From a virus: a stretch of DNA of 23,848 bases. A model generated the notes under the pieces. The model was not told the origin of the DNA. It did no database searches and saw nothing but the letters and a program-made list of their open reading frames with translations. Position numbers and translations under genes: made by a program. Where the stretch lies: positions 1 to 23,848 of the IMG/VR virus record IMGVR_UViG_3300008120_000608; one strand, written 5' to 3'. Shown here one piece after another: positions 4,516 through 23,848 of this stretch. The number at the start of each line of letters is the position of its first letter. Position 1 is the stretch's first letter.

Positions 4516-4681
4516 GGCCGTTCCGGGGGGGGTTCTGACAGCCGGCAGCGGCCCGGCAAGCCGTTTAGACCCCGTTTAGCTTTTGCGATCGGGGCTTGGG
4601 CAATACCCAGGTAGCCGCAAAGACTTCCGGCGCCTCCTAGGCCCTGTTTTTGAAAAGTGCTCACTAACTTTTGAAGCGGGG
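4516..4681 (-). other. Non-coding gap between large terminase and portal
   Basis: This is the only gap of more than 100 bases between the endolysin gene and the MuF gene. On the coding strand it holds, in order, an AAAAGT/ACTTTT inverted repeat next to the terminase stop, an unused AGGAGG, an imperfect hairpin CCTGGG-TATTG-CCCAAG, and a doubled CTAAACGG element within CTAAACGGGGTCTAAACGG. I see no ORF with a plausible start. It could hold an internal promoter or processing site for the portal-head genes, but nothing in it resembles the palindromes seen before lys and I. Confidence 0.45.
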
Positions 4682-6013: not shown

Positions 6014-6183
6014 GCGTACCTCCACCACCGGAAGACGTGGACGAACCACCAGGTCACCGCCCAGCCCCCGCGCCAGCCATCCGGCGGCCGGCGGTCCACC
6101 TGCGGCAGCAGCACCCACCAGCGCGGATGCCACGCCAGCGCCACGCCAGACGTGATCTCCTGGTCAGGCCGGTGCAGCGCCAT
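6010..6183 (-). CDS. 57-residue tryptophan-rich small phage protein
   Basis: A short gene sits exactly between the small and large terminase genes. Its ATG (6183-6181) shares one base with the small terminase stop (TGATG), and its TGA (6012-6010) overlaps the GTG of the large terminase. The product starts MALHRPDQEITSGVALAWHP and contains nine Trp in 57 residues, in WW pairs, with Arg and Val between them. It could be a membrane-associated or packaging accessory peptide. The precise start/stop coupling on both sides is the main evidence that it is real. The codon phase also explains why the large terminase frame appears to extend upstream. No family is recognised. Confidence 0.7.
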   Translation of the reverse strand: MALHRPDQEITSGVALAWHPRWWVLLPQVDRRPPDGWRGGWAVTWWFVHVFRWWRYA

Positions 6184-6716
6184 CAGAGCGCGCCCTCGTA
6201 AACGGCCCGCACCTTGGCCAGCATCTCCAGGGCCACGTCGCGGGTTTCGCCCTTCATGGCCTTGGCCTGGGCCTCCACCTGGGCCAGCTGCGCGGCGACC
6301 TTGGCGCGCACGTCCATCTGCCAGCGCTTCTGCGTCACACTGGCCCGCGCCAGGTCGGCAATGCTTTTGGTCACCTTGGTGATGTTCACGGACTCCGGGT
6401 CCACGTCCAGCTCCACCAGCAGGCCGAACAGCTTGTCCTGCGTCAGCCGGATCAGCGCCTCGTTCATGGCGCCTTCGTCGTCCGGGCTGGCCTGCACCAC
6501 GGCGCGGGCCTGCTCGGTGCTGACTTTGAGTTGCGCCAGGCGCGCCTCGAACTGGGTGCCGTACCGGTGCACCGCGCTCTTGCTCACCTCGGCGCCCTGG
6601 GCCTTCAGGTCTTCGGCCAACTGCACATAGTCAGCAAAGCCGCGGCGCACCAGCTCGGCGTCCAGCCACTCTTTCAGCTCGGGCGGCAGCCCGGCAATCT
6701 TGCTGCGGCGGGGCAT
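6183..6716 (-). CDS. Small terminase subunit (Mu gp27-like, DUF3486)
   Basis: The 177-residue protein begins MPRRSKIAGLPPELKEWLD, the hallmark of DUF3486. This is followed by a helix-turn-helix region with AEDLKAQGAEVSKSAVHRYG (residues about 34-55), then a long helical region and a C-terminal alanine/lysine-rich helix. In Mu this protein recognises the packaging site and partners with the large subunit. The length is usual for the family. It starts 4 bases after the gp26-like stop and its stop overlaps the next start by one base. Confidence 0.9.
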   Translation of the reverse strand: MPRRSKIAGLPPELKEWLDAELVRRGFADYVQLAEDLKAQGAEVSKSAVHRYGTQFEARLAQLKVSTEQARAVVQASPDDEGAMNEALIRLTQDKLFGLLVELDVDPESVNITKVTKSIADLARASVTQKRWQMDVRAKVAAQLAQVEAQAKAMKGETRDVALEMLAKVRAVYEGAL

Positions 6717-6720
6717 GCGC

Positions 6721-7032
6721 TCACCCCACCTGCGGCCGCAGGATGCCCGGCTCCACCGGCACGGTGTATTCCGCCACGTCCACCCCGGCGCGCGTCAGCT
6801 CGGCGTGCCAGGCGCCCAGTGGGTCTCGCTGGATGGTGACCAGATCCCGGTCGGCCAGGTAGTCCAGCTCGCGCTTGAGTTCGAGGTCCGTCGCGTCCGC
6901 GTAGGTGGCCGACACCACCGAGCGGATGGCCGCCAGGCTCATGCCCACCGGGCGGGCCACGTTCAGGGCCACCAGCAGCAGCCAGCGGATGGTCTCGCGC
7001 CGGGCCTTGGCCATCTGCAAGTTGATGTCCAT
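6721..7032 (-). CDS. Mu/BcepMu gp26-like small helical (winged-helix-like) protein
   Basis: This protein has 103 residues from the ATG at 7032; a GTG lies directly upstream at 7035. The upstream gene's TGA overlaps the ATG (TGATG). The sequence has MDINLQMAKARRETIRWLLLVALN, then SLAAIRSVVSATYADATDLELKRELDYLADRDLVTI, which reads like a winged-helix fold with a recognition helix and a final wing strand. It occupies the slot before the small terminase where Mu carries gp26. The function of this family is unknown; a role in packaging or DNA binding is inferred from position. Confidence 0.8.
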   Translation of the reverse strand: MDINLQMAKARRETIRWLLLVALNVARPVGMSLAAIRSVVSATYADATDLELKRELDYLADRDLVTIQRDPLGAWHAELTRAGVDVAEYTVPVEPGILRPQVG

Positions 7033-7373
7033 CACGTATCCCCACGGGTGTTGTTGTTCTGGCTGGCGCGCAGCACCACGTTTTCAAACCGGATGGCCAT
7101 CGCGTCCAGCTTGGTCATGATGGTGGCGATGGCCTGCGTGTAGTCCTCACGCCGCACATAGTCACGCGGCAGCTCGGCCTTCAGGTCCATCAGCTCGCGC
7201 TCCAGGCGGCGGCTGGTTTCGTCCTGCCGGCCCAGGTGGGCCTTCACCTCGGTGAACTGCTCGCGGATGGAGTTGACGGCGCCGGCCAGCAGCACCTTGG
7301 CCAAGGCCCAGAACGCGGCTACCAGCGTGAACGCCACCGTGAGCACATGGAAAAGAGACAGTTCAAAGGTCAC
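7032..7373 (-). CDS. Membrane-anchored coiled-coil protein (DUF2730-like, Mu gp25 slot)
   Basis: The protein has 113 residues from a GTG at 7373. One N-terminal membrane span (about residues 8-30, VLTVAFTLVAAFWALAKVLL) is followed by a charged coiled coil (REQFTEVKAHLGRQDETSRRLERELMDLKAEL) and a conserved-looking PRDYVRREDY. Membrane anchor plus periplasmic or cytoplasmic coiled coil fits the DUF2730/Mu gp25-like family placed after the lysis genes. A spanin-like function is an alternative. It follows the holin-like gene by 6 bases, and its stop overlaps the next start. Confidence 0.75.
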   Translation of the reverse strand: MTFELSLFHVLTVAFTLVAAFWALAKVLLAGAVNSIREQFTEVKAHLGRQDETSRRLERELMDLKAELPRDYVRREDYTQAIATIMTKLDAMAIRFENVVLRASQNNNTRGDT

Positions 7374-7379
7374 GGGCGC

Positions 7380-7919
7380 TCACTCCTTGATGCCGGCAGG
7401 GTTGATCTGGGCCAGCAGCTGGTCTTTCTCCTTGCTGCCGCGGCTGCTGCCGAACTCGAACTGGTGGGCATCGCGCAGGCACAAGCCGAAGATGCCGGCG
7501 ATGGTGGACAGCAGCGTCACCACCTCGGCGGGCATCTTGTCGCGGTACAGCGCCAGCACCCCCAGGCAGGCCACCAGGCCCACCACGTCCATCACCACCA
7601 TCAAGTCGGCCCGCCTGTTGCGCATGCCTGCCTGGGCCAGGGCCACGTCGCGGCGGCGGGCGTCGGCGCGGTCATTCAGGTAGGCGCGCTCCAGCTCGCC
7701 GTCAATCTCGATCAGCCGCTGCTGGTACTGCAGCACCAGGGCAGGGTCAGCCTGCAACTGCTGCACCGCCTGCGCCGGGGTGGCGGCGCCGGTTACCTGC
7801 TGGGCCACCTGCACCACGCGGTCTACCACCGAGGCGGCCGGCTCCCCGGCGCCAAAGTAGCGCATCACCGTGGGCGCCATGCTGGCCAACTGCAACGCAA
7901 TGGGAATGAGCGGGGCCAT
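7380..7919 (-). CDS. Holin-like membrane protein
   Basis: The 179-residue protein has an N-terminal helix MAPLIPIALQLASMAPTVMR, a soluble helical middle with PAQAVQQLQADPALVLQYQQRL and a charged segment DRADARRRDVALAQ. Two membrane spans follow (about residues 108-125, VVMDVVGLVACLGVLAL, and 131-148, VVTLLSTIAGIFGLCLR), then a polar tail. This arrangement matches the phage holin 3TM-type proteins that release or time endolysin action. It starts one base after the lipoprotein stop, within the lysis cluster. The family call is from topology and context. Confidence 0.75.
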   Translation of the reverse strand: MAPLIPIALQLASMAPTVMRYFGAGEPAASVVDRVVQVAQQVTGAATPAQAVQQLQADPALVLQYQQRLIEIDGELERAYLNDRADARRRDVALAQAGMRNRRADLMVVMDVVGLVACLGVLALYRDKMPAEVVTLLSTIAGIFGLCLRDAHQFEFGSSRGSKEKDQLLAQINPAGIKE

Positions 7920-7920
7920 G

Positions 7921-8127
7921 TCAGCGAGCTTTCTTGAGGGCGCGCCGGTGGCGTGCCTGGTTTCGGCGCTTGCGCGCCATGCGTTGCACGTGCCGGTTGC
8001 TCAGGCCGCGGCTGCGAGCTTGCGCCGTGGGCGCCACGGTTCCGCCCGTCACGCCTGGGGTCGGCGTCCATGCACACGCGGCCGTGGCCAGCGCTGCGGC
8101 CAGCACGGAAGCCAAGGCGCCCCTCAT
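7921..8127 (-). CDS. Small lipoprotein in lysis cassette
   Basis: The chosen start is the ATG at 8127 because it overlaps the endolysin stop (ATGA). Starting there leaves a clean signal peptide, MRGALASVLAAALATAACAW, with lipobox-like TAAC at the cleavage site (Cys18). The mature part is short: TPTPG, a Thr/Gly/Ala linker, and a very basic C-terminus rich in Arg/Lys/His. The total is 68 residues. Small lipoproteins next to endolysin and holin are often Rz1-type outer-membrane spanins, but this one is less proline-rich than usual and no Rz partner is embedded in another frame. The outer-membrane lysis role is therefore tentative. Confidence 0.65.
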   Translation of the reverse strand: MRGALASVLAAALATAACAWTPTPGVTGGTVAPTAQARSRGLSNRHVQRMARKRRNQARHRRALKKAR

Positions 8128-8807
8128 GCCGCACCGCCTTCCAGCACGTTCACCGCCAGCGGCTGCATGCCGGCCTGCAGCCAAGCGGCCACGTCGAAGC
8201 CTGGGCAGGTTTTCAGCCACTCCTGGCGGGTGACCTGGCCGTCGCCGTTGGTGTCAGGTGACAGGTCACGGTGGCCGCACACGCGCACCTGGCTGCGCGC
8301 CAGGGCATCCAGCTCGCCCTTCAGGCGGGCCACCAGCGTCCGCAGCGCACGCCACTGCGCCAGGGTGTAGCGCGCCACGGGCTCTGCGCCGCCCACCATG
8401 CAAATGCCCACCGAACGGGCGTTGAAGCCCGCCACGTGCGCGCCGGGCTCGGGCAGGCCACGGCCGGTGGCAATGCGGCCGTCCAGGTCAATGACGTAGT
8501 GGTAGCCGATGTGCGCCAGGTTCGGGTTCAGCCGGGCGGCCGCGCGTGGCAGGCGCGCAAACCCGCGCGCCTTGTGCCAGCCGTCGATGGCGGTTTCCGC
8601 CTCAGGGGCCAGCCGGACACCGCTGCGCGTGGCGCTGCAGTGGATGACGATCAGGTCTATCGGCCGCATGGCGCTGCGCTCGGCCAGCGTGCGCGGCAGC
8701 GAAGCCCTCACGGCCGCATGGGCAGCCTCGACGGCCTGCAACTCCAGGCCGGGATAGTCCGCAGGCGCAGGGGCTGCGCGGAGGTTGGGGAGCGGGGTCG
8801 ATTGCAT
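8124..8807 (-). CDS. Endolysin: N-acetylmuramoyl-L-alanine amidase (Amidase_2)
   Basis: The protein has 227 residues from the ATG at 8807. The amidase domain begins near residue 47 (MRPIDLIVIHCSATRSG, zinc ligand H56). It continues with IGYHYVIDLDGRIATGRGLPEPGAHVAGFNARSVGICMVGG and ends with CGHRDLSPD and LKTCPGFDV, whose Cys is the last expected zinc ligand. Between these, DTNGDGQVTRQEW has the spacing of an EF-hand loop. The enzyme cleaves the lactyl-Ala bond of peptidoglycan at lysis. The first 46 residues are extra to the domain. Met47 (8669) is a plausible alternative start, because the start at 8807 has no Shine-Dalgarno and instead abuts a hairpin. It is the first gene of the late operon. 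Confidence 0.9.
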   Translation of the reverse strand: MQSTPLPNLRAAPAPADYPGLELQAVEAAHAAVRASLPRTLAERSAMRPIDLIVIHCSATRSGVRLAPEAETAIDGWHKARGFARLPRAAARLNPNLAHIGYHYVIDLDGRIATGRGLPEPGAHVAGFNARSVGICMVGGAEPVARYTLAQWRALRTLVARLKGELDALARSQVRVCGHRDLSPDTNGDGQVTRQEWLKTCPGFDVAAWLQAGMQPLAVNVLEGGAA

Positions 8808-8824
8808 CCGGGCAGGATGCCCGG
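8808..8824 (-). promoter_or_regulatory. Hairpin directly abutting the endolysin start codon
   Basis: The inverted repeat CCGGGCA-TCC-TGCCCGG (7-bp stem, 3-base loop) ends one base before the ATG at 8807, in the place where a ribosome binding site is expected. It could restrain translation of the endolysin, or indicate that the true start is downstream at 8669. Confidence 0.5.
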
Positions 8825-8844
8825 ATGGGGAGAGCTATCGCATC

Positions 8845-8858
8845 GTGACGTGTGTCAC
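8845..8858 (-). promoter_or_regulatory. Palindrome upstream of endolysin, putative late-promoter (Plys-like) activator site
   Basis: The plus-strand sequence is GTGACGTGTGTCAC, extended by one more pair to CGTGAC-GTGT-GTCACG (8844-8859). It matches the site at 760-773 in 13 of 14 positions. Its centre is 44.5 bp from the endolysin start codon, against 45.5 bp for the protease I site. The coding-strand bases just downstream also agree in part (ATGC, then a run of four C at the same offset). It separates the lysogeny genes to its right from the late genes to its left. Confidence 0.55.
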
Positions 8859-8870
8859 GGCATGCGCTGG

Positions 8871-9332
8871 CTACGCGGGTTCAGCAGGCGCAGCCTCGGC
8901 TTCCATCTGTAGCGCCGCCCGAACTGGAATGAACAGGTAGTCATCGGTGGATTGCCACACCCCATTCTCGACGTCCGCATAGAAGGTATCCGCGCGTGCC
9001 GAAGTGGTCAAAAGCACAGCCGCTGCGAGGCCACCAATCGCCCCGTACCACCAAGGCGACCCCATCAAGGCAGCCAAGCTCGGGCCAACGATCAGGCAGG
9101 CAGCCATGAACTTGGCCGACAGCGGCGCCGTGGCTGCGGTTGTTCCTGAAATCGTCGTCTTGGTGTACGTGTAGGTGAACGGTACCGCAACCTGCATTGT
9201 CGGGGATGCCCTGACGAAGCTCTCGACCAACGGATGGCGCCATGAATTCGGATGTCCGCAGCTTGGGCAAGCGTCTGCCAGCTTGGACAGCGAACGGTCG
9301 CATGCAGCGCACGTAATCAGATCTGTTGTCAC
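8871..9332 (-). CDS. Zinc-ribbon membrane protein, candidate lysogenic-conversion gene
   Basis: I chose the GTG at 9332 because GGGAGGTGG lies 4-12 bases upstream; ATG codons at 9347/9350 sit before that ribosome site. The 153-residue product starts with a double-CxxC zinc ribbon (TCAAC, then ACPSCGHPN, residues about 7-27). A linker rich in Thr follows, then two membrane spans (about residues 77-112) and a short soluble tail. Zinc ribbon plus membrane anchor is a common build in small prophage-encoded proteins of unknown function. It is the last gene of the regulator-led unit and lies outside the late operon. Surface exclusion or a membrane effector role is speculation. Confidence 0.75.
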   Translation of the reverse strand: MTTDLITCAACDRSLSKLADACPSCGHPNSWRHPLVESFVRASPTMQVAVPFTYTYTKTTISGTTAATAPLSAKFMAACLIVGPSLAALMGSPWWYGAIGGLAAAVLLTTSARADTFYADVENGVWQSTDDYLFIPVRAALQMEAEAAPAEPA

Positions 9333-9346
9333 CGTGCCACCTCCCA

Positions 9347-9595
9347 TCAAGGCGCGTCGACCCTACAGCTGGGGCCTAGCTGAAAGACACGCTCTGGCGG
9401 CGCGTTGAAGGATGAACATGGCTGCTTGCCGGGCTCCTGAACTGGAAGGAAGAGGCCGGCGCACGCGATCGCTGCGACGAACGCAATGAGCCCAACGGTC
9501 CACCGGTCCGGCCCCTGCATCAGGATCACGTCGCCAATGACGTTTGCTACTTGGATGCCCGAACCGTGGTTCTGCTGTTTGCTTGTACTGATCAC
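9347..9595 (-). CDS. Small single-span membrane protein downstream of the HTH regulator
   Basis: The protein has 82 residues from a GTG at 9595 that overlaps the regulator's stop (GTGA). The N-terminus contains GSGIQVANVIGDVIL, which closely resembles the C-terminal GSGSYQIANTGGDI of the upstream regulator. One membrane span follows (about residues 33-51, TVGLIAFVAAIACAGLFLP), then a Cys-containing polar tail. No family is recognised. Coupled translation with the regulator suggests that it is expressed in the lysogen. Confidence 0.65.
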   Translation of the reverse strand: MISTSKQQNHGSGIQVANVIGDVILMQGPDRWTVGLIAFVAAIACAGLFLPVQEPGKQPCSSFNAPPERVFQLGPSCRVDAP

Positions 9596-9966
9596 CGTGA
9601 AATCCTCCTGTGTTTTATGTCGCCTCCGGTGTTGGCGATTTGGTAAGAGCCGGATCCTTTCATTTTCTGCACTGCGGACATCACAGGTTCACGCGTGGCG
9701 GCCACCTCGGCGGGCGCGCCTTGCCCACCTCGCAGCAGCAAGTCTAGGTTGACGTCAAAGCCGACACCCAGCTTGTGCAGGTAGACGGCATCCAGCAGGC
9801 GCTTCCCTGTCTCTAGCCGGTACTGCTGGGCCAGGCTCACGCCTAGCTGCTTGGCCATGTCGATGGCATTGACACCAATCTCCTCCCGCACGGCTTTCAG
9901 CCGGCCACCGATGAGGCGGCTCAGCTCCTTATCCGTATCGCTTTCAACTCTGGCCTTGCGCGGCAT
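9592..9966 (-). CDS. XRE-type HTH regulator, candidate phage repressor
   Basis: The protein has 124 residues. Residues about 18-80 form a Cro/CI-type helix-turn-helix domain: GRLKAVREEIGVNAIDMAKQLGVSLAQQYRLETGKRLLDAVYLHKLGVGFDVNLDLLLRG. The ATG at 9966 is preceded by GAGGGGG at good spacing. It is transcribed leftward, away from the early genes, from a region containing repeated operator-like elements. That is the position of the repressor c in Mu-like phages. The protein lacks any LexA-like peptidase or large C-terminal domain; it ends with GSGSYQIANTGGDI and a basic tail. It could be the master repressor or an accessory Cro/Ner-like regulator. Confidence 0.8.
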   Translation of the reverse strand: MPRKARVESDTDKELSRLIGGRLKAVREEIGVNAIDMAKQLGVSLAQQYRLETGKRLLDAVYLHKLGVGFDVNLDLLLRGGQGAPAEVAATREPVMSAVQKMKGSGSYQIANTGGDIKHRRISR

Positions 9967-9992
9967 GTAACCCCCTCAAGTTAGTCGGGTAT

Positions 9993-10031
9993 TTTCGCTA
10001 TTTGACGCATTCGCTATTTGGCGAAAACAAT
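9993..10031. promoter_or_regulatory. Divergent early/lysogeny control region with repeated operator-like elements
   Basis: Two perfect copies of TTCGCTATTTG (9994-10004 and 10010-10020) are spaced 16 bp apart. The second is also the left arm of TTCGC-TATTTG-GCGAA. A rightward promoter can be read as TTGACG (10002-10007), an 18-bp spacer and AACAAT (10026-10031), so the repeats overlap it. The region lies between the leftward regulator (start 9966) and the rightward early genes. It is locally AT-richer than its surroundings. Binding by the 9592-9966 regulator is inferred. Confidence 0.6.
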
Positions 10032-10056
10032 CCCACATCGTCACCGTGTGTCCCTG

Positions 10057-10344
10057 ATGCTACCTATGCCAAGGCCAAGAATCAAAGCACCAGATATCAA
10101 AACACCAGATGCAGTCCGAGCAGAGCTGCAGGAGGCGGGGCTGTCCTTGGCCGAGTGGGCGAGGGCCCACAACGTGTCCTATGAGGTCACCAAGGCCGTG
10201 CTCGCGGGCCGGCTCAAGGGCAAGCGCGGAGAGGCCCATCGGATTGCCATTGGCCTGGGCTTGAAGGTTGGCAAGGTCATTGCTCCGCAAGCCTACGGCG
10301 CACCCCCTCCGAAGCCTCATCGTTCACTGAGGGTGGTGCCGTGA
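10057..10344 (+). CDS. BcepMu gp16-family DNA-binding protein
   Basis: The protein has 95 residues from the ATG at 10057 (the ATG at 10066 is equally possible). Upstream TTG and GTG codons are in frame but fall inside or close to the operator repeats, and no Shine-Dalgarno supports them. The core, LSLAEWARAHNVSYEVTKAV followed by GRLKGKRGEAHRIAIGLGLK, is the signature of the phage-associated BcepMu gp16 family, a small helix-turn-helix-like fold. As the first rightward early gene it is in the place of Mu ner, the negative regulator of early transcription. That role is inferred from position. Confidence 0.8.
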   Translation: MLPMPRPRIKAPDIKTPDAVRAELQEAGLSLAEWARAHNVSYEVTKAVLAGRLKGKRGEAHRIAIGLGLKVGKVIAPQAYGAPPPKPHRSLRVVP

Positions 10345-11180
10345 TGAAGCCGCAGAGTTTCCAACAAGACAGCGACGATGACGCGGGGGTGCCGCAGCGC
10401 TTGCGGGCGGTCATCGCGGATAGCGGGATGTCCCAGGCCAAGTTCGCTGCGCACGTCGGCATCGATCTGGACCGCCTGAAGGGCGTTCTGAGGGGGAAGA
10501 CACGCCGCCCCCCCCTAGATCTGCTACAGAAGGTGATCAAGCGGTGCAACGTCGATTCGACGTGGCTGTTCACCGGCATGAAGCTCGACGTGGGCGAGAC
10601 GACGCCACTTGAAAAGGCGCTGATTGCCGACTTCCGTTTGCTCAAGCCCGCCGAGCAGTACGCGATTAGACGTGCAGCGGCGGCGAGGGGCGACGAACCC
10701 AAGCTGAAGACGCTTCTTGATGAACTAGCCGCCCGCCGTGCGGAGGCGCTTGATCCCAGCCCGCCGCCCGACCAGGCACCAGCGTGCGCTGCGAGGAAGC
10801 CCCATTTCAAGCTCCGCTTGTCCGGCCAGATCGACCTGGTGTCGCCGGGCACCGAGGCGGTGTCGCGTTTTGAGACACAAGCATTCTCCACCGAGCAGCT
10901 AGCTCAAGCCAAAAAACGCATCACAGACACCGGCCAAACGTTGGCCGACTGGGCTCGCAAACGAGACCTTGACTACAACACCGTTTCCCTCGCGCTGCAA
11001 GGGCGGTTGAAGGGCCTGCGCGGTGAAGGGTATCGCGTTTGCGTCGCCCTCGGCCTTCGGGAGGTGTCAAGCAAGCACAGGCGGCAGTGGGCGGCAGTCC
11101 CTAGCCACGAAGAAGCGGCCCTGGTTCATCTCCACGACAGGGGGAACTTGGAACGCCGCGCGGGAAAGGTCCAACCATGA
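10344..11180 (+). CDS. HTH regulator fused to a second BcepMu gp16-type domain
   Basis: The protein has 278 residues from the ATG at 10344, which overlaps the preceding stop (TGATG) and follows GAGGGTGG. Residues about 16-75 are a CI/Cro-type helix-turn-helix (RLRAVIADSGMSQAKFAAHV, then KTRRPPLDLLQKVIKRC). A charged linker and proline-rich segment follow. Residues about 188-232 repeat the gp16 domain (GQTLADWARKRDLDYNTVSL, then GRLKGLRGEGYRVCVALGLR). The C-terminal 45 residues match nothing I know. Two DNA-binding domains in one chain suggest bridging of operators. GC content is somewhat lower here than in the structural genes. Confidence 0.8.
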   Translation: MKPQSFQQDSDDDAGVPQRLRAVIADSGMSQAKFAAHVGIDLDRLKGVLRGKTRRPPLDLLQKVIKRCNVDSTWLFTGMKLDVGETTPLEKALIADFRLLKPAEQYAIRRAAAARGDEPKLKTLLDELAARRAEALDPSPPPDQAPACAARKPHFKLRLSGQIDLVSPGTEAVSRFETQAFSTEQLAQAKKRITDTGQTLADWARKRDLDYNTVSLALQGRLKGLRGEGYRVCVALGLREVSSKHRRQWAAVPSHEEAALVHLHDRGNLERRAGKVQP

Positions 11181-11410
11181 GCAGCCTCACCACCCAGTTG
11201 GACCCCGCCGCACAACGCCGCGCTTTGCAGCGCGAGGTGCTCACGCGCCATCGCCTGGAGTTGGCCGCCGCGGTATCTGAAGCAGCTCGGCAAGTTGCCG
11301 AAGCGCTGCAGCCACTTCGGGCTCTTCCGGCCACTGGCCAGCCTCATTCATCAACAGTGCGGCCAGTTGCGGACGCAAAGGCCCCAGCGGACCCGGGAAT
11401 CGATCAATGA
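11177..11410 (+). CDS. Small Ala/Arg/Leu-rich early protein
   Basis: The start overlaps the preceding stop (ATGA). The product has 77 residues, and the first 40 form a plausible amphipathic helical protein (PAAQRRALQREVLTRHRLEL, AVSEAARQVAEALQPL). After about codon 35 the third-position GC preference weakens and the protein becomes low-complexity. The same stretch is antisense to the 3' end of the minus-strand gene at 11241-11546, so the C-terminal part here may not be conserved. No family is recognised; the coupling to the regulator supports it being translated. Confidence 0.6.
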   Translation: MSSLTTQLDPAAQRRALQREVLTRHRLELAAAVSEAARQVAEALQPLRALPATGQPHSSTVRPVADAKAPADPGIDQ

Positions 11411-11546
11411 ATCGCACCGTCTCGTGCAACGCTGTCTGCAGGGCCACGATCTGCCCCGCCAGATGCGCGTGCGAAAGCTCCAGGGCGGCGCTCTGGTGCT
11501 TCGCAAGCAGATCCAGCAGTTGCGCCAGTTCGTCGTCAGTGAGCAT
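11241..11546 (-). CDS. Antisense-oriented 101-residue helical protein inside the early operon
   Basis: This frame is on the strand opposite to all neighbouring early genes. It encodes 101 residues of natural composition (MLTDDELAQLLDLLAKHQSA, then AGQIVALQTALHETVRFIDR and MNEAGQWPEEPEVAAALRQL). Third codon positions are mainly G/C through most of its length, weakening only at the 3' end. The plus strand has no believable gene from 11411 to 11588, so this ORF explains that space. It converges with, and overlaps by 170 bases, the small gene at 11177-11410. No clear Shine-Dalgarno is visible. It is either a real counter-transcribed gene or a relic. Confidence 0.5.
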   Translation of the reverse strand: MLTDDELAQLLDLLAKHQSAALELSHAHLAGQIVALQTALHETVRFIDRFPGPLGPLRPQLAALLMNEAGQWPEEPEVAAALRQLAELLQIPRRPTPGDGA

Positions 11547-11588
11547 GGGCGCGATCGTATCCGGTGGCCGCCCTGCGGAGGCCCAGCC

Positions 11589-13739
11589 ATGAGCGCCTGG
11601 GCCACCGCCACAGACCTGGCCGGCCTGCCCGGCCTGCCGGCCAGCGCATTTCGCATCCGTGAAGTGCTCACCCGCCTGTCGGTGCCCTCACGCCGCCGGG
11701 CGGGCCGGGGCGGCGGTGTGGAGTTTGCCGTCGCCGCGCTGCCCGAACACACGCGCCTGGCCTTTGTGCAGCGCTGCGGCGCTGATGCGCAGGTGTCTGC
11801 CAACGATGCCCGCCTGGCCAGCGTGCCCCCGCAGGCCAGCGCCCGCGCTGAAGAAGCCCGCCAGGCCGCGCTGGTGACCGGCTGGAGGAAGGACCGTCAG
11901 GACGAAGTGGCCCGGGTGCTGGTGGCCTTCCAACGCTTCTGGGCGGGCTTTGGTGGGCCGGTGACGCCGGCCCTGCACGCCTTCTGCAGCCTGTGGGCTG
12001 CCGGCAAGGTTCCGGCCGATGAGGCGCTGCGCACGGCCTACCCGCGCCTGAGCTTTTCAACCCTGCGCGGCTGGTACGTGGCGGTGGAGCGCGGCGGGCT
12101 GGCGGAGATCACCCCACCCAAGCACTGGCGCAAAGGCCAGTTCTCGGCCCTGGCCGGTGAGGTGGGCCACGCGGTGCTGGCGCTGCTGATTGACAAGCCG
12201 CACCTCTCGGCCCAGGCCATTTACCGGGTGCTGCAGGCGCAGTTCGCCGGCCTGCCGAGTGACCGCGCTTTCCGGCGCGGCCTGGCCGCCTGGAAGACGC
12301 ACAACGCCCAGTTGCTGGCCGGGCTGACCAACCCGGACGCCTGGCGCAGCCGCTACATGAGCGCGGCCGGCAGCGCCAGCGCCGCCGTCACCAAGCCGAA
12401 CCAGTTGTGGGAGATGGACTCCACCCCGGGCGACGTGATGCTGGCCGATGGCAAGCGGCACGCCGTCATCGCGGTGATTGACGTGTACACGCGGCGCCGC
12501 ATGTTCTTGGTGGCCCGCACGTCGAAAAGCGGCGCCATCATGGCCCTGATCCGCCGCGCCATTGCGGCCTGGGGCGTGCCCGAGGCCATCAAGACGGACA
12601 ACGGCCAGGACTACACCGCGCGCCAGTTGGACCAGGCGCTGGTGGGCCTGGGCATCGAGCACCCGCTTTGCACGCCGTTCTCACCCCATCAAAAGCCCCA
12701 TGTGGAGCGCTGCATCGGCGCCCTGATGCGCGAGCACTTTGAGTTGTTGGACGGCTTCATCGGCCACAACGTGGCGCAGCGCCAGGACATCGAGGCGCGC
12801 CGCAGCTTTGCCGAGCGGCTGTTTGACGCGGACGGCAGCACAGAGCTGCGCCTGAGCCCTGAGCAGTTGCAGGACACGCTGGACGCCTACTGCACCCGCC
12901 GCGAGGCCCAGCCCGAAGAGGCGCTGGGCGGCATGACGCCGCTGCAGGCTGCGGCCGGGTTCAGCTCCGCCACCGTGAGCGAGCGCGCCCTGGACATCCT
13001 GCTGGCACCTGCAGCCGATGGCGGCACCCGGGTGGTGGGGAAGAAAGGCTTGCGCATCGGCCGCGGTGACTACAACCACGCCGCCCTGGGCGGCCTGGAG
13101 GGCAGCACCGTGCAGGTGAAGGTGGATGACGCCAACCTGGGCCGCTGCTGGGTGTTTGACCTGGACGGCATCTATCTGTGTGAGGCCATCGACCACGCCC
13201 GCCTGGGCATCAGCGCGGCCGAGGTGGCCGCTGAGCGCAAGGCTGAGCAGGCCAGGAAGATGCGCGAGGCCAAGCGCCGGATCAAGGCCGAGACGCGCGA
13301 ATACGACACCCGCGCCGCGGTGCAGGCCATCACCCACCGCCGTGTGCAGCAGGCGGTGGAGGCATCGCCCAACGTGGTGGCCCTGCGGCCGCAGCGCGAG
13401 CACACCAGCACGGCGATCGAATCCATTGACGCCGCAGGGGTTGACCTGGTCACCGCCGCGCAGGTGGCCAGCAGCCAGCAGGTGGTGGCCGCGCGCCTGG
13501 CCGCCGTGCCCGCACCCGCCGTGGCGCCGGCCCAGGTGCTGCGCCTGGATGACACGCCGCAGCTGCGCTACGCGCGCTGGGTGCGGCTGGAGCAACGCGT
13601 GCAGCGCGGGCAAGCGCTGACGCCTGCTGAGGGCACCTGGTTCCAGGGCTACCCCGCCGGGGCGGAGCACCGGTCCATGCGCGACTACTTTGAAAGGTTC
13701 GGCCTCGACGCCGAGACGGTGCTGGCCGGCGCAGGCTGA
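11589..13739 (+). CDS. Transposase, MuA/BcepMu type (DDE, rve core)
   Basis: The protein has 716 residues. The ATG at 11589 has GGAGG seven bases upstream; the frame is open further left but without a start signal. The N-terminus (WATATDLAGLPGLPASAFRI) matches the MuA end-binding wHTH domain. A helical DNA-binding region with STLRGWYVAV and LIDKPHLSAQAIYRVL comes next. The catalytic core has WEMDSTP (D277), IKTDNGQDY (D337) and KPHVERCIG (E373), a DD-35-E arrangement that is tighter than in MuA. A beta-barrel domain and a long charged helical tail follow; the tail would contact the ATPase partner. It performs strand transfer for integration and replicative transposition. The MuB-like gene begins 105 bases later. 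Confidence 0.95.
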   Translation: MSAWATATDLAGLPGLPASAFRIREVLTRLSVPSRRRAGRGGGVEFAVAALPEHTRLAFVQRCGADAQVSANDARLASVPPQASARAEEARQAALVTGWRKDRQDEVARVLVAFQRFWAGFGGPVTPALHAFCSLWAAGKVPADEALRTAYPRLSFSTLRGWYVAVERGGLAEITPPKHWRKGQFSALAGEVGHAVLALLIDKPHLSAQAIYRVLQAQFAGLPSDRAFRRGLAAWKTHNAQLLAGLTNPDAWRSRYMSAAGSASAAVTKPNQLWEMDSTPGDVMLADGKRHAVIAVIDVYTRRRMFLVARTSKSGAIMALIRRAIAAWGVPEAIKTDNGQDYTARQLDQALVGLGIEHPLCTPFSPHQKPHVERCIGALMREHFELLDGFIGHNVAQRQDIEARRSFAERLFDADGSTELRLSPEQLQDTLDAYCTRREAQPEEALGGMTPLQAAAGFSSATVSERALDILLAPAADGGTRVVGKKGLRIGRGDYNHAALGGLEGSTVQVKVDDANLGRCWVFDLDGIYLCEAIDHARLGISAAEVAAERKAEQARKMREAKRRIKAETREYDTRAAVQAITHRRVQQAVEASPNVVALRPQREHTSTAIESIDAAGVDLVTAAQVASSQQVVAARLAAVPAPAVAPAQVLRLDDTPQLRYARWVRLEQRVQRGQALTPAEGTWFQGYPAGAEHRSMRDYFERFGLDAETVLAGAG

Positions 13740-19244: not shown

Positions 19245-19691
19245 ATGAGCAAGCTGGCCCGAGACCACCGCAACGCCGAGTTGGCCAAGATCCACCTGGC
19301 CAAGAAGGACCTTTGCATGACGGACGAGGAATACCGCGCCATGCTGTGGTCGGTGGGCCGCGTCAACTCGGCCAAGGATCTGGACTACGCAGGCCGCCAG
19401 GCCGTGCTGCAGCACCTGCAGGCGTGCGGCTTCAAGCCTGCCGCGGCCAAGAAGGCGGGCCGGCAAAAGCGGCCCACGCCATCGGCCGAGAACCTGCCCC
19501 TGGTCAGGCGGATCCGCGCGCAGTTGATCTCGCTGGGCAAGCTGCCCGACGAGTATGCCGACGGCATCGCCCGGCAGATGCTGGGCGCTGACGCACCGCA
19601 GTTCTACGAGTGGGCGCACACCGATGCCCTGCACCGTCTTTCGGCCGCGCTGGGGGTGGAGCAGCGCCGCAAGGGAGCGCCCACGCGATGA
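19245..19691 (+). CDS. gemA: GemA-family regulatory protein (DUF1018, Mu gp16)
   Basis: The protein has 148 residues from the ATG at 19245. DUF1018 signatures: LARDHRNAELAKIHLAKKDL, MTDEEYRAMLWSVGRVNSAK, LDYAGRQAVLQHLQACGFKP, then a basic linker and a second half with LVRRIRAQLISLGKLPDEYA, DGIARQMLGAD and ALHRLSAALG. In Mu, GemA modulates host gene expression and DNA topology. It directly precedes and overlaps the Mor gene, as in Mu. Confidence 0.92.
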   Translation: MSKLARDHRNAELAKIHLAKKDLCMTDEEYRAMLWSVGRVNSAKDLDYAGRQAVLQHLQACGFKPAAAKKAGRQKRPTPSAENLPLVRRIRAQLISLGKLPDEYADGIARQMLGADAPQFYEWAHTDALHRLSAALGVEQRRKGAPTR

Positions 19692-20152
19692 GCAGCAGCG
19701 CCAAGCAGCGCCACCAGTTGGCTGACAGACACGGCCCGCAACACGGCCCGCAGATGGACCTCTTCGAGGCCACCAACGTGCTGCGCGAGCCAGCGCGGGC
19801 AGACGAGCTGCCCGCCACGGCGCGCGAGCTGGTGCGCATGATCGGCCTGGACGCCACCATCCAACTGGTGCAGATGTTCGGGGGCGACGAGCTGGTGATG
19901 CCCCAGAAAGTGCGCGGCACCAGCCGCCTGTGGGATCTGCTGGTGGAGGTGATCGGCGAGCACGCCGCCACACGCCTGGTGGACGAGACCGCAGGCACCC
20001 GGCTGTACGTGCCCACCTGCCAGGCCGCGCTGCTGTCAGAGCGCAACCGAGAGATCGCCCGCGCCTACGACGCAGGCGAGCACTTCGACGCTATCCGCCG
20101 CCGCTACAAGGTCTCGCGCCGGCACCTGTGGCGCCTGTTGAAGAAGGGGTAA
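19688..20152 (+). CDS. mor: Mor-family transcription activator (middle/late)
   Basis: The protein has 154 residues from the ATG at 19688 (ATGA overlap with gemA). Mor/C-family features: TARELVRMIGLDATIQLVQM, LWDLLVEVIGEHAATRLVDE, then GTRLYVPTC, and the C-terminal HTH SERNREIARAYDAGEHFDAI followed by RRRYKVSRRHLWRLLKKG. Mor and C bind as dimers to dyad sequences just upstream of -35-less promoters and recruit RNA polymerase. It is the only Mor/C-like gene visible here. It is therefore the best candidate to act, directly or through an unseen C, on the palindromes before lys and I. Confidence 0.9.
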   Translation: MSSSAKQRHQLADRHGPQHGPQMDLFEATNVLREPARADELPATARELVRMIGLDATIQLVQMFGGDELVMPQKVRGTSRLWDLLVEVIGEHAATRLVDETAGTRLYVPTCQAALLSERNREIARAYDAGEHFDAIRRRYKVSRRHLWRLLKKG

Positions 20153-20394: not shown

Positions 20395-20720
20395 TGATCA
20401 ACAACGAAGACTCAGCCCTGCCCGAAGTGAGCGAGGACGAGGCCTGGTATGACGCCGAGATTGCGCCAGCCCTGGCTGCGCTGGCGAAGCGGTGCTTCGA
20501 ACGCGGCATGGCCTTTGTGGCAGCGGTTGAGTACCAGCCCGGCAACCAAGCTGGCACCTACTGCATGACCGAAGGCGCTGGGCTGGCGATGGAGATGCTG
20601 AACCTGTGCGCGCAGACCGCGCCCAACGTAGACAGCTACATCATGCACTTGCGCAAGCTGTGCAAAGAGCGCGGCCAGGACATCAGCGGCAGCTTCGTGC
20701 TGCGCGGCATTGGGGCCTAA
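20391..20720 (+). CDS. Hypothetical accessory protein
   Basis: The protein has 109 residues from the ATG at 20391, followed by a second ATG; the previous stop overlaps. The acidic N-terminus (SEDEAWYDAEIAPALAALAK) is followed by a helical/beta core (CFERGMAFVAAVEYQPGNQA, GLAMEMLNLCAQTAPNVD) and DISGSFVLRGIGA. The stop codon TAA is part of GCCTAAC (20715-20721), the same 7-mer that forms one end of each attC-like element downstream. Confidence 0.68.
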   Translation: MMINNEDSALPEVSEDEAWYDAEIAPALAALAKRCFERGMAFVAAVEYQPGNQAGTYCMTEGAGLAMEMLNLCAQTAPNVDSYIMHLRKLCKERGQDISGSFVLRGIGA

Positions 20721-20722
20721 CG

Positions 20723-20908
20723 ATGGAGCTAAGCGTGAATTACCGAGAGACTGACAACGAATGCCCTGCCTGCGGGGCAACTGCCAATGACCGCAAGTGC
20801 AACAAACCCGAGGAGCCGCAAGGTTTAAGCGAGTGCCCTCGATGCGGGTCTGACAAGTGCTGCATGTGCGACATGGGTGACGACGTTGAGTGCCCGGCCT
20901 GTGACTAA
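20723..20908 (+). CDS. Small Cys-rich (zinc-binding) protein
   Basis: The protein has 61 residues from the ATG at 20723, two bases after the preceding gene. It has ten Cys, including CPACGATANDRKC, CPRCGSDKCCMC and a final CPACD, consistent with two zinc sites. It is short, acidic at the end, and lacks a signal peptide. No family is recognised. The attC-like element follows 6 bases after the stop. Confidence 0.7.
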   Translation: MELSVNYRETDNECPACGATANDRKCNKPEEPQGLSECPRCGSDKCCMCDMGDDVECPACD

Positions 20909-20914
20909 AGCGTG

Positions 20915-20974
20915 GCCTAACGGGCCGGGTGAGCTGCCCGCCTTTGGCGGGTCAGCTCGACCCGGGTGTTGGGC
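20915..20974 (-). other. attC-like integron recombination site 1
   Basis: This is a 60-base imperfect palindrome. On the minus strand it opens with GCCCAAC (RYYYAAC) and closes with GTTAGGC (GTTRRRY). Inside is an 18-bp stem (20925-20942 with 20946-20965) around a 3-base loop. The stem is perfect except for two unpaired bases, T20952 and G20959, six base pairs apart. Read on the minus strand these are an extra C and an extra A in the first arm, the arrangement of extrahelical bases in classical attC sites such as that of aadA cassettes. The alternative is a strong intergenic hairpin without a recombination role. Confidence 0.7.
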
Positions 20975-21007
20975 GGCCGGTGAGCGAAGCAAACAAGGGC
21001 TTGAGCA

Positions 21008-21256
21008 ATGAGCATGGACTACATACGTCGCACCTACGGGGTGCCGGCAAAGCGCGGCATGACGGTCACGATCCTTGGCGACGGAGTGCGTTTCCAGGCG
21101 CGCATCGTCGGATCGCACGGCCAATACCTGCGGCTTTGGATTTCTGGCGGCAGGCGCTCGCACCTGTACCACCCGACCGATGCGCTGGAGTACCCGGCGG
21201 CGGCAAGCGGCAAGACGCCCAACGCGCCGGGCCAGCCGGGGAGCGCCTACAAATGA
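21008..21256 (+). CDS. Small beta-rich hypothetical protein
   Basis: The protein has 82 residues, ATG at 21008. The core (RGMTVTILGDGVRFQARIVG, QYLRLWISGGRRSHLYHPTD) looks like a small SH3/KOW-type barrel, possibly nucleic-acid binding. The C-terminus is low-complexity. It is the first gene after attC-like site 1. It has no strong ribosome site. No named family is recognised. Confidence 0.65.
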   Translation: MSMDYIRRTYGVPAKRGMTVTILGDGVRFQARIVGSHGQYLRLWISGGRRSHLYHPTDALEYPAAASGKTPNAPGQPGSAYK

Positions 21257-21537
21257 CCGGAGCCGAGAAAGACACGCTGATTGCCCTGGTGGAGCAAGGC
21301 CCGCTGTGGGATGGCGACGTGCCCAGCAAGACCGGGCGCGACGCGCTGCTGGCGCAGGGCTTGGCGGTGCGCGTGGTGGTGAAGGGCGAGGACGGATGGC
21401 AGGCTGCGACCTATGCAGGCCGCGACGCCTACCGGGAGATGTTCCCCGGACCCGATGGCCCGGCAGCCACGATCAAAGAAGCCAAGGTGAACCGGCTGAC
21501 GCGCCGCGCGATCAACAGCGCGTTGCGCGCCGCGTGA
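21253..21537 (+). CDS. Small winged-helix-like hypothetical protein
   Basis: The protein has 94 residues from the ATG at 21253, overlapping the previous stop (ATGA). The pattern TGAEKDTLIALVEQGPLWDG, SKTGRDALLAQGLAVRVVVK, DGWQAATYAGRDAYREMF is that of a one-domain winged helix with a C-terminal tail. Similar short proteins are frequent in phage accessory regions. The function is unknown. Confidence 0.7.
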   Translation: MTGAEKDTLIALVEQGPLWDGDVPSKTGRDALLAQGLAVRVVVKGEDGWQAATYAGRDAYREMFPGPDGPAATIKEAKVNRLTRRAINSALRAA

Positions 21538-21568
21538 AGCACAACGAGAGATAGCCCGAAGGTCAACC

Positions 21569-21994
21569 ATGACTGACACGATCAACCTGAAGACAGCCGC
21601 CCAGCGCCTGCTTGAAGCCTGGGACACCACCCCGCTGATGCGCCAGGGCGACGGCATGCTGCAGGAGCGCTTCGAGGTGCTTCGAGACGCGCTGGAGCAG
21701 CCGTCCACTGATCCTGCGCACGAGTATCGGAAGGGCTTCGTTGACGGTCAGCTTGACATGCGTGATCGCCCAGAGGAGCAGCCAGAGCGCACCGACGGCA
21801 TGCCGGCCTCGGCTGATGAGCGTTACCTGCGCCGGCTGCTGGCGGTGCGCGTGGGCATTCCCGGCGCGTACTACGACGACGGCGAGGCGGCGGCCGAGAT
21901 TGACGCGAAGCTGAGGGCGCTGAATGTGGCCAGGGCGGAAGTGGCGCAGCCGGCTGGAGTTGATCTGTTGGGTCCAAAAGGGGAACACTCATGA
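21569..21994 (+). CDS. Hypothetical protein
   Basis: The protein has 141 residues, ATG at 21569, with GAAGG at 21558-21562. The sequence is helical and acidic (LKTAAQRLLEAWDTTPLMRQ, MLQERFEVLRDALEQ, AHEYRKGFVDGQLDM, ERYLRRLLAVRVGI). The centre resembles linker regions of phage proteins of unknown role. The stop overlaps the next start. Confidence 0.65.
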   Translation: MTDTINLKTAAQRLLEAWDTTPLMRQGDGMLQERFEVLRDALEQPSTDPAHEYRKGFVDGQLDMRDRPEEQPERTDGMPASADERYLRRLLAVRVGIPGAYYDDGEAAAEIDAKLRALNVARAEVAQPAGVDLLGPKGEHS

Positions 21995-22329
21995 TTCTTT
22001 TCGAGGCCACCAAGCCACTTGGACTTGATTGGAGCGAGGGGCAAGGAGTGGACGAGTACCGCAAGCAGCACGAGCAGGAATGGCAGCCGACGGTGCAGGA
22101 ACTGAAAGCCGTGGAACTTGCCGAGCGCTACCACCATGAGACGGAAGCCTATGACCGAACGGTGTGCGCAGGGCGGGTTCTCGATGGCTCGATCATGCCG
22201 ATGAACCACCGTGAACTGGCGTTGGTGAACGGCAACGCGCGCCGCGTGCTGGCGCAGATCATGGCCGAAGCTGCAGCGGCTGGAATCAGCGCAGAAGACA
22301 TGCGCCGGTCCATTGGCCGCCACGCCTAA
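21991..22329 (+). CDS. Hypothetical protein ending in an attC-like end
   Basis: The protein has 112 residues from the ATG at 21991 (ATGA overlap) with GGGGAA upstream. The acidic N-terminus ILFEATKPLGLDWSEGQGVD is followed by helices LKAVELAERYHHETEAYDR, LALVNGNARRVLAQIMAEAA and ISAEDMRRSIGRHA. The stop codon TAA lies inside GCCTAAC, one end of attC-like site 2. No family is recognised. Confidence 0.68.
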   Translation: MILFEATKPLGLDWSEGQGVDEYRKQHEQEWQPTVQELKAVELAERYHHETEAYDRTVCAGRVLDGSIMPMNHRELALVNGNARRVLAQIMAEAAAAGISAEDMRRSIGRHA

Positions 22330-22381
22330 CGCCGCACATTGAGCGGCGCCGTTCGGCGGCCGCTCGAATTGCTTGTTCGCC
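22324..22381 (-). other. attC-like integron recombination site 2
   Basis: This is a 58-base imperfect palindrome. On the minus strand it begins GGCGAAC and ends with a canonical GTTAGGC. The inner stem pairs GAGCGG and CGCC segments and carries two extra bases in the first minus-strand arm, C and C, again six base pairs apart. Orientation is the same as site 1. The first box deviates from RYYYAAC, and the outer stem has mismatches, so it is the weaker of the two. The 1.35 kb between the two sites holds four coupled or closely spaced plus-strand genes. Confidence 0.6.
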
Positions 22382-22402
22382 CTCGCGGCGATGGAGAACG
22401 AC

Positions 22403-22765
22403 ATGAGCTATGCAAGCGAGTACCCAATTGCAGCGAGCCTGCCGAAGACGGCGCACGCGCTGCGGCCGATGCGGATTGACCGCGACGAAGACCCGGTGCA
22501 CTACGAGGCCACCACGTTTCCGCGCGACCCGTACAAGGGTTGCGAGCTGGTGATCCGGCGCATGGAGTGCTTCGGCATGCTGACCAAGCGCGCCGGGCCG
22601 CTGCAAGGCGCGTGGTTCTTGGATGTGCTGGACGTCGAGGCCGACATCCTCGACACGCTGGAAGTGAACGCGGAGGGCGTGAAGTACATGCGCCGCGTGC
22701 TGTTCATGAAGCGCGAGGACAAGGCGCTGCGCGACGCCTTCGACAAGCTGGCGGCCGCTGCGTGA
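22403..22765 (+). CDS. Hypothetical protein
   Basis: The protein has 120 residues. The ATG at 22403 has GGAG six bases upstream; an ATG at 22391 is also in frame but coincides with that ribosome site. The sequence has RPMRIDRDEDPVHYEATTFP, CELVIRRMECFGML and ILDTLEVNAEGVKYMRRVLF, an alpha/beta protein without a recognised family. It is the first gene after attC-like site 2. Confidence 0.68.
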   Translation: MSYASEYPIAASLPKTAHALRPMRIDRDEDPVHYEATTFPRDPYKGCELVIRRMECFGMLTKRAGPLQGAWFLDVLDVEADILDTLEVNAEGVKYMRRVLFMKREDKALRDAFDKLAAAA

Positions 22766-22806
22766 GGCCGAACGCGCCCATGTTCGGCGGCAAAGAGGCC
22801 GAGGCG

Positions 22807-23274
22807 ATGGAGCGCAGCGCGACGCTGAGCGATTGCCGCGCGTACCGCTACGCTCTGTGGCGTCGCTGGGGGCGCGGACCCTACGCCATGTTCATCGGCC
22901 TGAATCCGAGCACCGCTGACGAGCTGAACGACGACCCCACCATCCGGCGGTGCATCGGTTTCGCGCGGGCCTGGGGTTACGAGGCGCTTTGCATGACCAA
23001 CCTCTTTGCCTACCGCGCGACCAAGCCCGCCGACATGAAGAAGGCCGCCGAGCCCGTGGGCTGGAACAACGACAACACTTTGCGCGAGCTGTCGCACGGT
23101 GCTGGGGTGGTGGTTGCCGCGTGGGGCGCGCACGGCACGTACAAGGGCCGCGATCAGTCGGTGCGCCTGCTGGTGCCGGGCCTGCACTACCTGCGGCTGA
23201 CAAAGGACGGCCACCCAGGACACCCGCTGTACCTGCCCGCAAGCCTGCGGCCGGTGCCGTGGGTGAAGTGGTGA
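22807..23274 (+). CDS. DUF1643 family protein
   Basis: The protein has 155 residues from the ATG at 22807, supported by AGAGG; an ATG at 22780 would add nine residues. DUF1643 signatures: MERSATLSDCRAYRYALWRR, FIGLNPSTADELNDDPTIRR, CIGFARAWGYEALCMTNLFA, YRATKPADM, VVVAAWGAHG, and the C-terminal TKDGHPGHPLYLP. Conserved Asn/Asp/Arg residues suggest an enzyme, but no activity is known to me. It is the last convincing gene before the non-coding tail. Confidence 0.88.
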   Translation: MERSATLSDCRAYRYALWRRWGRGPYAMFIGLNPSTADELNDDPTIRRCIGFARAWGYEALCMTNLFAYRATKPADMKKAAEPVGWNNDNTLRELSHGAGVVVAAWGAHGTYKGRDQSVRLLVPGLHYLRLTKDGHPGHPLYLPASLRPVPWVKW

Positions 23275-23361
23275 CGCCGACGACGACGTGGGGCCGCTAC
23301 AACCGGCCGAGAGGTACGGCCTGGCCGTCGATCTGAAGCCTGGTTCTGGCGGCTTCTCAGC

Positions 23362-23402
23362 CCTGTGGATAACTTCCCTGGGCGGCCTGTGGATAACTTC
23401 CC
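23362..23402 (+). repeat. 17-bp direct repeat containing two perfect DnaA boxes
   Basis: CCTGTGGATAACTTCCC occurs at 23362-23378 and 23386-23402, identical and 24 bp apart. Each includes TGTGGATAA, the complement of the consensus DnaA box TTATCCACA. The repeat lies in non-coding DNA. Confidence 0.85.
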
Positions 23403-23420
23403 CTCCAGGTCAGCCCAGCA

Positions 23421-23534
23421 CGTGCAAGTTCCCGGCGGGCTGGTTTTCAGGGCTTTTCACAAAAGCCTTTGCGCGACAGGCACTTAGCGCGAACCTGCAC
23501 GGAACCTCGAACTTGCACGAAAACGTGCAAGTTC
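23421..23534. repeat. Array of 11-bp CGTGCAAGTTC elements with perfect palindrome
   Basis: CGTGCAAGTTC is found at 23421-23431 and 23524-23534, and its complement at 23509-23519, with a one-mismatch complement (GAACCTGCACG) at 23491-23501. The 23509 and 23524 copies form a perfect inverted repeat with an AAAA spacer. Copies of both orientations within about 115 bp suggest a protein-binding array such as an origin, an operator or transposase end sites. Confidence 0.8.
23451..23470 (+). terminator. Possible Rho-independent terminator of the early transcript
   Basis: GGCTTTT-CAC-AAAAGCC followed by TTT forms a 7-bp stem. The stem is AT-rich and the T tract is short, so it is only a moderate candidate. 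It lies 177 bases after the last rightward gene and within the CGTGCAAGTTC array. Confidence 0.4.
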
Positions 23535-23848
23535 CGGTGGTTTCCACGAGCCCGCAGTTGCTGCAGCCGGCCCAGTTGCAGCGTGGCCTTCCAGGGCGTC
23601 TACCGAGGGCAAGAAGGCCCTTCAAAGCGCATTCCAGGGGCATGTGACGGGCCGGTCAGGTGGTGCCAGCCAGGCGCCTTGGAGGCCATACTGCATGCGT
23701 CCGGCCGATTTGCCCCCGATAGGTGCCGACCTGGCCGCCCCGACCTGCCTAACCCCTTGATTTGGCGGACCTTTTCCCAGGTCTTCCCACCTCAGCCTGC
23801 CACTTCCCGGACCGCACCGGCCAGTTCAGGTCCATGCGTCCGCTCACA

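Follow-up and report, generated by a model that had tools for sequence, protein, structure and literature searches.

Integrons have mainly been viewed as bacterial platforms for collecting genes, and their occurrences in phages as captured host integrons. Phages also shuffle small genes in a modular way by means of T4-type promoter-stem-loop cassettes, which have hairpins between small genes, as do the phage arrays described below, and which differ from them in having neither attC boxes nor an integrase and in being exchanged by homologous recombination. Qi et al. 2023 (PMC9892861) describe attC sites and cassettes in phages, some of which carry intI, and report that IntI1 recombined five of the six phage attC sites tested.

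Here we analysed the virus record IMGVR_UViG_3300008120_000608, the whole 23,848 bp of which we refer to as the window. An earlier note on this DNA had pointed to two integron-like hairpins and suggested host integron activity as their likely source. Our analysis indicates that the hairpins are very probably attC sites of a phage-type integron array with reversed genes, here partly decayed and without its integrase.

Results

The carrier phage

The window derives from a transposable phage, because it encodes a MuA-type transposase (Table 1); the Mu portal and Mor are also present, and the carrier can be described as Mu-like. Left-hand genes on the minus strand encode the Mu portal, terminase, Mu F protein and Gp27. 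A rightward operon encodes a repressor-like protein, the MuA transposase, an AAA protein, Gam and Mor, and the attC region comes after Mor, in agreement with the earlier assignment of the hairpins to the accessory region of a Mu-like phage. As had also been noted, there is no integron integrase on the contig. The contig is itself a fragment that ends only 574 bp past the last gene, so an intI farther to the right is conceivable. Its non-coding right end (23275-23848) contains CCTGTGGATAACTTCCC twice (23362 and 23386), together with ACGTGCAAGTTCC in direct and inverted copies (23420, 23509 and 23523); these repeats are possibly transposase-binding sites near a phage end.

Two attC sites in the window

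Folding confirmed both hairpins at their reported coordinates. The earlier note had placed them on one strand and had proposed a search with an attC covariance model; the model that we built gave significant matches at both, each on the minus strand. It was trained on 26 attC sites from bacterial chromosomal and class-1 plasmid integrons only, each written in gene direction, leaving out near-duplicates and a few atypical bacterial hairpins (including L047:2355-2427, where the gene call was ambiguous). The plus strand of site 1 scored merely 21.2 bits, and the next independent place in the window had an E-value of about 1 or worse, giving no further significant site. A strict box-plus-stem detector likewise recovered site 1 in the window and found nothing in three dinucleotide shuffles.

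On the plus strand site 1 reads GCCTAAC...GTTGGGC with a long stem, and on the minus strand, the canonical top strand, R'' is GCCCAAC and R' is GTTAGGC, both in full accord with the inverted attC boxes RYYYAAC and GTTRRRY. When site 1 is folded on the plus strand its 3' arm leaves T20952 and G20959 unpaired with exactly 6 bp between them (T-N6-G). The bottom strand of this site is the coding (+) strand. Site 2 reads GCCTAAC...GTTCGCC on the plus strand, with an intact R' (GTTAGGC) and a degenerate R'' (GGCGAAC), and its 3'-arm bulges, G22358 and G22366, are 7 bp apart in the fold (G-N7-G rather than T-N6-G). Each site thus leaves two bases outside the helix on a single arm of its folded bottom strand, as attC sites do, and the R-box-type ends and 6-bp spacing claimed for the pair hold fully for site 1, whereas site 2 keeps one box and has a different spacing. 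Sites of the T-N6-G type were the most readily excised by the integrases tested in PMC3053210, with exceptions for one integrase. Judged by sequence and fold, the window hairpins are attC sites. Lying 1.35 kb apart on the same strand (such clusters comprising at least two sites within about 4 kb) on a contig without intI, they correspond to a CALIN and not to a complete integron.

Table 1. Positions of the features discussed in the text (numbering of the window)
Feature	Position	Strand	Evidence and remarks
MuA-type transposase	11424-13739	+	Pfam rve, Mu-transpos_C and HTH_Tnp_Mu_1; PHROG transposase, E 1e-98
Mor-type activator	19610-20152	+	Pfam PF08765, E 6e-14; no Mu-like early gene can be recognised between it and the array
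Probable attC remnant, GCCTAACGATGGAGCTAAGC	20715-20734	-	Matches the 5' arm GCCTAACGNNNGAGCTAAGC of phage attC; sequence only
Cassette gene, small Cys-rich protein	20735-20908	+	GTG start inferred; homologues in array phages L003/L008 and L004/L005
attC site 1	20915-20974	-	Fold; covariance model 38.6 bits, E 6.6e-9
Cassette gene, function unassigned	21008-21256	+	L003 and L004 homologues, 86-90% identical, with other attC-like sites at their flanks
Remnant recombination box GCCCAAC	21217-21223	-	Alignments with L003 and L004
Small gene between attC sites	21253-21537	+	ORF; PHROG families of unknown function
Small gene between attC sites	21569-21994	+	ORF with coding signal
Cassette gene, ends GCC TAA inside attC box	21991-22329	+	Homologues in L098 (beside an attC) and L078, both array-bearing
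attC site 2, partly decayed	22324-22381	-	Fold; covariance model 25.8 bits, E 2.5e-5
Gene directly 3' of attC site 2	22391-22765	+	ORF with coding signal
DUF1643 protein	22780-23274	+	Pfam PF07799, E 9e-45; 88% identical stretch in array phage L029

The four small genes described between the sites are indeed present, and the GCCTAA of site 2 provides the stop codon of the last of them. Several window genes have relatives in phage array loci. The first of the four is alike in the window and in two array phages (L003 and L004) as far as GCCCAAC and unrelated directly after it, where the relatives have another hairpin; in the window the gene extends beyond its lost recombination box. In the probable remnant upstream of site 1, one attC arm runs straight into the GTG (20735) with which the next gene begins. 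After the gene that ends at 22765, positions 22767-22788 read GCCGAAC-8 nt-GTTCGGC, with perfectly complementary boxes and hardly any stem; this is possibly a collapsed attC, below significance in the covariance model. A scan for one type of promoter, sigma-70-like, found none in 20600-22900. When the window region was compared directly at the DNA level with isolated phages and plasmids, the DUF1643 part alone was matched, and a search with the hairpin consensus matched no isolated phage. With two attC sites, two box remnants and a contig lacking intI, the window is best read, on its sequence, as a decayed fragment of a phage integron. Having no intI, one strong and one weak attC and two box remnants, the array may be inactive.

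Cassette genes are reversed relative to attC

In a canonical cassette the gene lies on the attC top strand, with attC downstream. The window has the reverse arrangement, its genes being on the plus strand and both attC top strands on the minus strand; in class-1 plasmid integrons used as controls the extrahelical bases always place the bottom strand opposite the genes. We fetched well over 100 viral loci with one hairpin pattern and two arm patterns, in none of which gene direction is encoded, and 27 bacterial loci with the same hairpin pattern, and combined the strand given by the covariance model with the output of a separate gene caller. Among the best 150 model matches in the related viral loci (51 loci) 144 were inverted and none was canonical, a ratio that describes loci mostly fetched from IMG/VR, which is metagenomic, by patterns of one attC type and not all phage attC; the best 150 matches in bacterial integrons included 9 inverted and 119 canonical sites, and in both sets the sites within a count are not independent events. 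Per locus, 51 viral loci had inverted sites only and none was canonical, whereas 29 bacterial loci had canonical sites only, 6 had both kinds and 1 had inverted sites only. A separate count based on the bulges gave inverted to canonical ratios of 87:8 for viral and 4:30 for bacterial hairpins. Bulge counting was noisy on hairpins longer than 80 nt, and this count was therefore confined to short hairpins, with the covariance model used instead for the main one.

Positions 3052-13648 of locus L008 (G002) form a long inverted phage array, in which the small genes share one strand and the strict detector recognised 15 attC-like sites; no integron integrase was found on the 36.9-kb contig. Among previously reported phage CALINs, Tetrasphaera phage TJE1, MW202573 and Polaribacter P12002L gave no match with the stringent hairpin detector. 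Contamination of the viral contigs with host integrons was considered and rejected on the basis of the orientation, the presence of capsid and tail genes and the phage integrases.

A core clade of phage integron integrases

A full integron integrase was found in one of 50 array contigs (G015, 428 bits), which suggests that most arrays, that of the window included, are fragments or rely on an outside enzyme. G015 also encodes capsid and tail genes and its own phage integrase. An attI-like core, GTTAGGC, lies 43 nt from the start of its intI, and its cassettes are reversed, with stop codons that fall inside the core. The encoded protein shows 56-57% identity to IntI1 and aligns with the Vibrio IntI of solved structure at an E-value of 7e-80; its catalytic residues R, K, H, R, H and Y are all conserved. 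This protein or its relatives occur on 28 viral contigs, and an attI-like sequence, AATTCGACCGC...GCGGCGTAACACC, is kept upstream of intI in many of these phages. The gene next to intI is on the strand of intI in 19 of the 22 phage contigs with a callable neighbour, compared with 3 of 14 bacterial loci, and 5 of 25 further bacterial IntI loci have a co-directional gene beside intI. The orientation of the hairpins relative to intI, however, is the same in the phage and bacterial sets, so that it is the genes that have been flipped and not attC. A search for Mu transposase in the 50 array contigs matched nothing, and neither did its control.

At 18372-18734 of L193 (G041) an inverted phage array ends in a truncated intI that covers 67 model residues, and the integrase of this integron is apparently being lost. 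In virus Rctr41k (L207, KX853513), which comes from a methane-oxidising enrichment, the IntI at 4680-5678 is annotated as an integrase-like xerD, and a single weak hairpin lies near it.

In a tree of 65 IntI sequences a core clade of phage proteins has support of 100/99. Three viral sequences fall outside it, suggesting that IntI probably entered phages more than once. One bacterial sequence (L284) groups with a phage sequence. Its locus on a bacterial chromosome (L288:9273-15399; G374, C2 at about 589-595 kb) is probably a prophage: adjoining phage-type DnaB and integrase genes is an array of seven attC sites, every one of them inverted, which ends in intI and includes DUF5131 and methyltransferase-like genes.

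These data bear on the source proposed in the earlier note, namely that ordinary host integron cassettes (a CALIN) were captured by a Mu-like phage through a host integrase. The attC sites are real, 17 of 21 bacteria with the same attC type encode IntI, and PMC9892861 already documents phage CALINs. Capture of this kind, however, predicts the canonical orientation, and the phage set is reversed. None of the sampled phage cassette proteins was found in the bacterial integron loci searched, and related arrays adjoin a phage IntI. Phage and bacterial IntI are, moreover, mostly separate: among 301 genomes of one bacterial family, 120 had an IntI at E ≤1e-80, and the closest of these to the phage IntI was 63% identical. 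We therefore regard host capture as improbable, and the window seems instead to belong to a pool of phage cassettes.

Cassette exchange at the expected box

Comparison among related phages, which the earlier note had proposed, revealed cassette-like swaps with breakpoints at the GCCYAAC/GTTRGGC box. Two otherwise unrelated phages (L026 and L034) have 428 bp in common at 100% identity, from GCCTAACG to GCCCAAC, and L027 and L045 have a similar unit in common at 91% identity. In three phages that are about 99.7% identical elsewhere (L032, L033 and L044), one and the same gene is followed by a different unit in each, and L044 is without one unit that L033 has. L215 and L226 agree at 97% identity in intI and over much of the flanking sequence, yet the arrays that they carry between a GCCTAAC box and the attI core differ completely. 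When all ends of homology inside arrays were assigned (n = 203), 27 fell at R' and 5 at R'', compared with 1.4% and 1.6%, respectively, of random points; this directional test supersedes a looser count of all homology edges, of which 8% were at boxes, as against 1.3%.

R' is the box at which an integrase acting on the coding strand would be expected to cut, and homology between hairpins would not by itself predict the asymmetry between R' and R''. This argues against reading the hairpins as conserved intergenic linkers for homologous gene exchange, in the style of T4 promoter-stem-loops and with no integron integrase. Near-identical hairpins within one phage could indeed recombine by homology (L033 and L044), and one unit indel crosses over at the other box (L027 and L040). 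Yet the hairpins after the same gene are often unrelated between phages, their boxes, bulges and sequence all match attC, and intI and an attI-like site adjoin related arrays; we give this explanation even less credence than capture from a host. That the hairpins work in RNA, as terminators or processing sites after small genes, with an accidental likeness to attC, is hardly credible even though they lie directly 3' of stop codons on the coding strand, since terminators were rejected for want of a terminator-like site at either window hairpin, Rfam gave no match in the window, the attC-specific match has an E-value of 7e-9 and the breakpoints fall at the cut box.

Cassette contents

The 126 genes adjoining attC sites have a median length of 98 residues and form 105 clusters, the majority without an assigned family. 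Among 91 cassette genes scanned, 7 of them from the window, were genes for DNA methyltransferases, two Lar restriction-alleviation proteins, an Acb2/Tad1 hairpin domain, NinX and DUF1643.

Discussion

At the level of sequence it is shown that the hairpins are attC sites, that they are inverted, that breakpoints fall at the box where they would be expected and that there is a clade of IntI with intact catalytic residues. From these we infer that the enzyme acts on these sites and that an ancestor of the window either had intI or used one in trans. More broadly, we think it likely that temperate phages possess a long-standing integron system of their own, with an IntI clade for the most part specific to phages, with a conserved attI and with cassettes whose inverted genes are expressed as a phage operon ending in intI, and that this system shuffles counter-defence and other accessory genes among phages, transposable ones included.

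In arrays of this class attC is oriented as usual with respect to attI and intI, and it is the gene within each cassette that is reversed. The coding strand is therefore the recombinogenic bottom strand of attC, the unit is a hairpin with the gene downstream of it, and the stop codon of the gene is often supplied by the TAA in the GCC-TAA-C core. The array makes up, with intI, one co-directional phage operon in which intI comes last. An IntI from the array phage itself or from a co-resident phage would cut the folded coding strand at GTTAGGC, excising or inserting cassettes, with the outcome that small accessory genes, some of them for counter-defence, would be shuffled among phages. The reversal may possibly be explained by the operon promoter, which would lie distal to attI, so that the reversed cassettes would be those expressed; if replication is co-directional, the reversal would also place the bottom strand on the template for lagging-strand synthesis. 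Cassettes may be transferred by Mu-type transposition.

If this is true, a separate phage lineage with reversed cassettes would amount to the phages' own system of site-specific gene shuffling. It would help to account for the mosaicism of small accessory genes in temperate phages, would provide a defined place in which to seek counter-defence genes, given that DNA methyltransferases, Lar-type restriction alleviation and an Acb2/Tad1-type domain are encoded in the sampled cassettes, and makes testable the question of what fixes gene orientation relative to attC.

We found no earlier description of the inverted architecture, the phage IntI clade or the directional breakpoints in the open-access literature, and take these three to be new; attC sites in phages and their recombination by IntI1 were already known from PMC9892861. 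The integrons and CALINs in that paper are captured ones, of the class-1, Vibrio and Shewanella kinds, two virulent phages having arrays of the typical form, and its accessible text contains no description of a phage IntI clade or of genes on the attC bottom strand, as found here. The chromosomal integrons of Proteobacteria and class-1 integrons are like the phage arrays in their attC boxes, bulges, attI and IntI and in the geometry of intI, attI and attC. In these bacterial integrons, however, the gene runs in the direction of the attC top strand and leads away from intI, whereas the phage genes are turned around and lead toward it. Treponema-type integrons (PMC3607928) resemble the phage arrays in having intI and the cassette genes on one strand, but there intI is read toward attI, whereas in the phages attI lies upstream of intI, as usual, and it is the cassette genes that are flipped.
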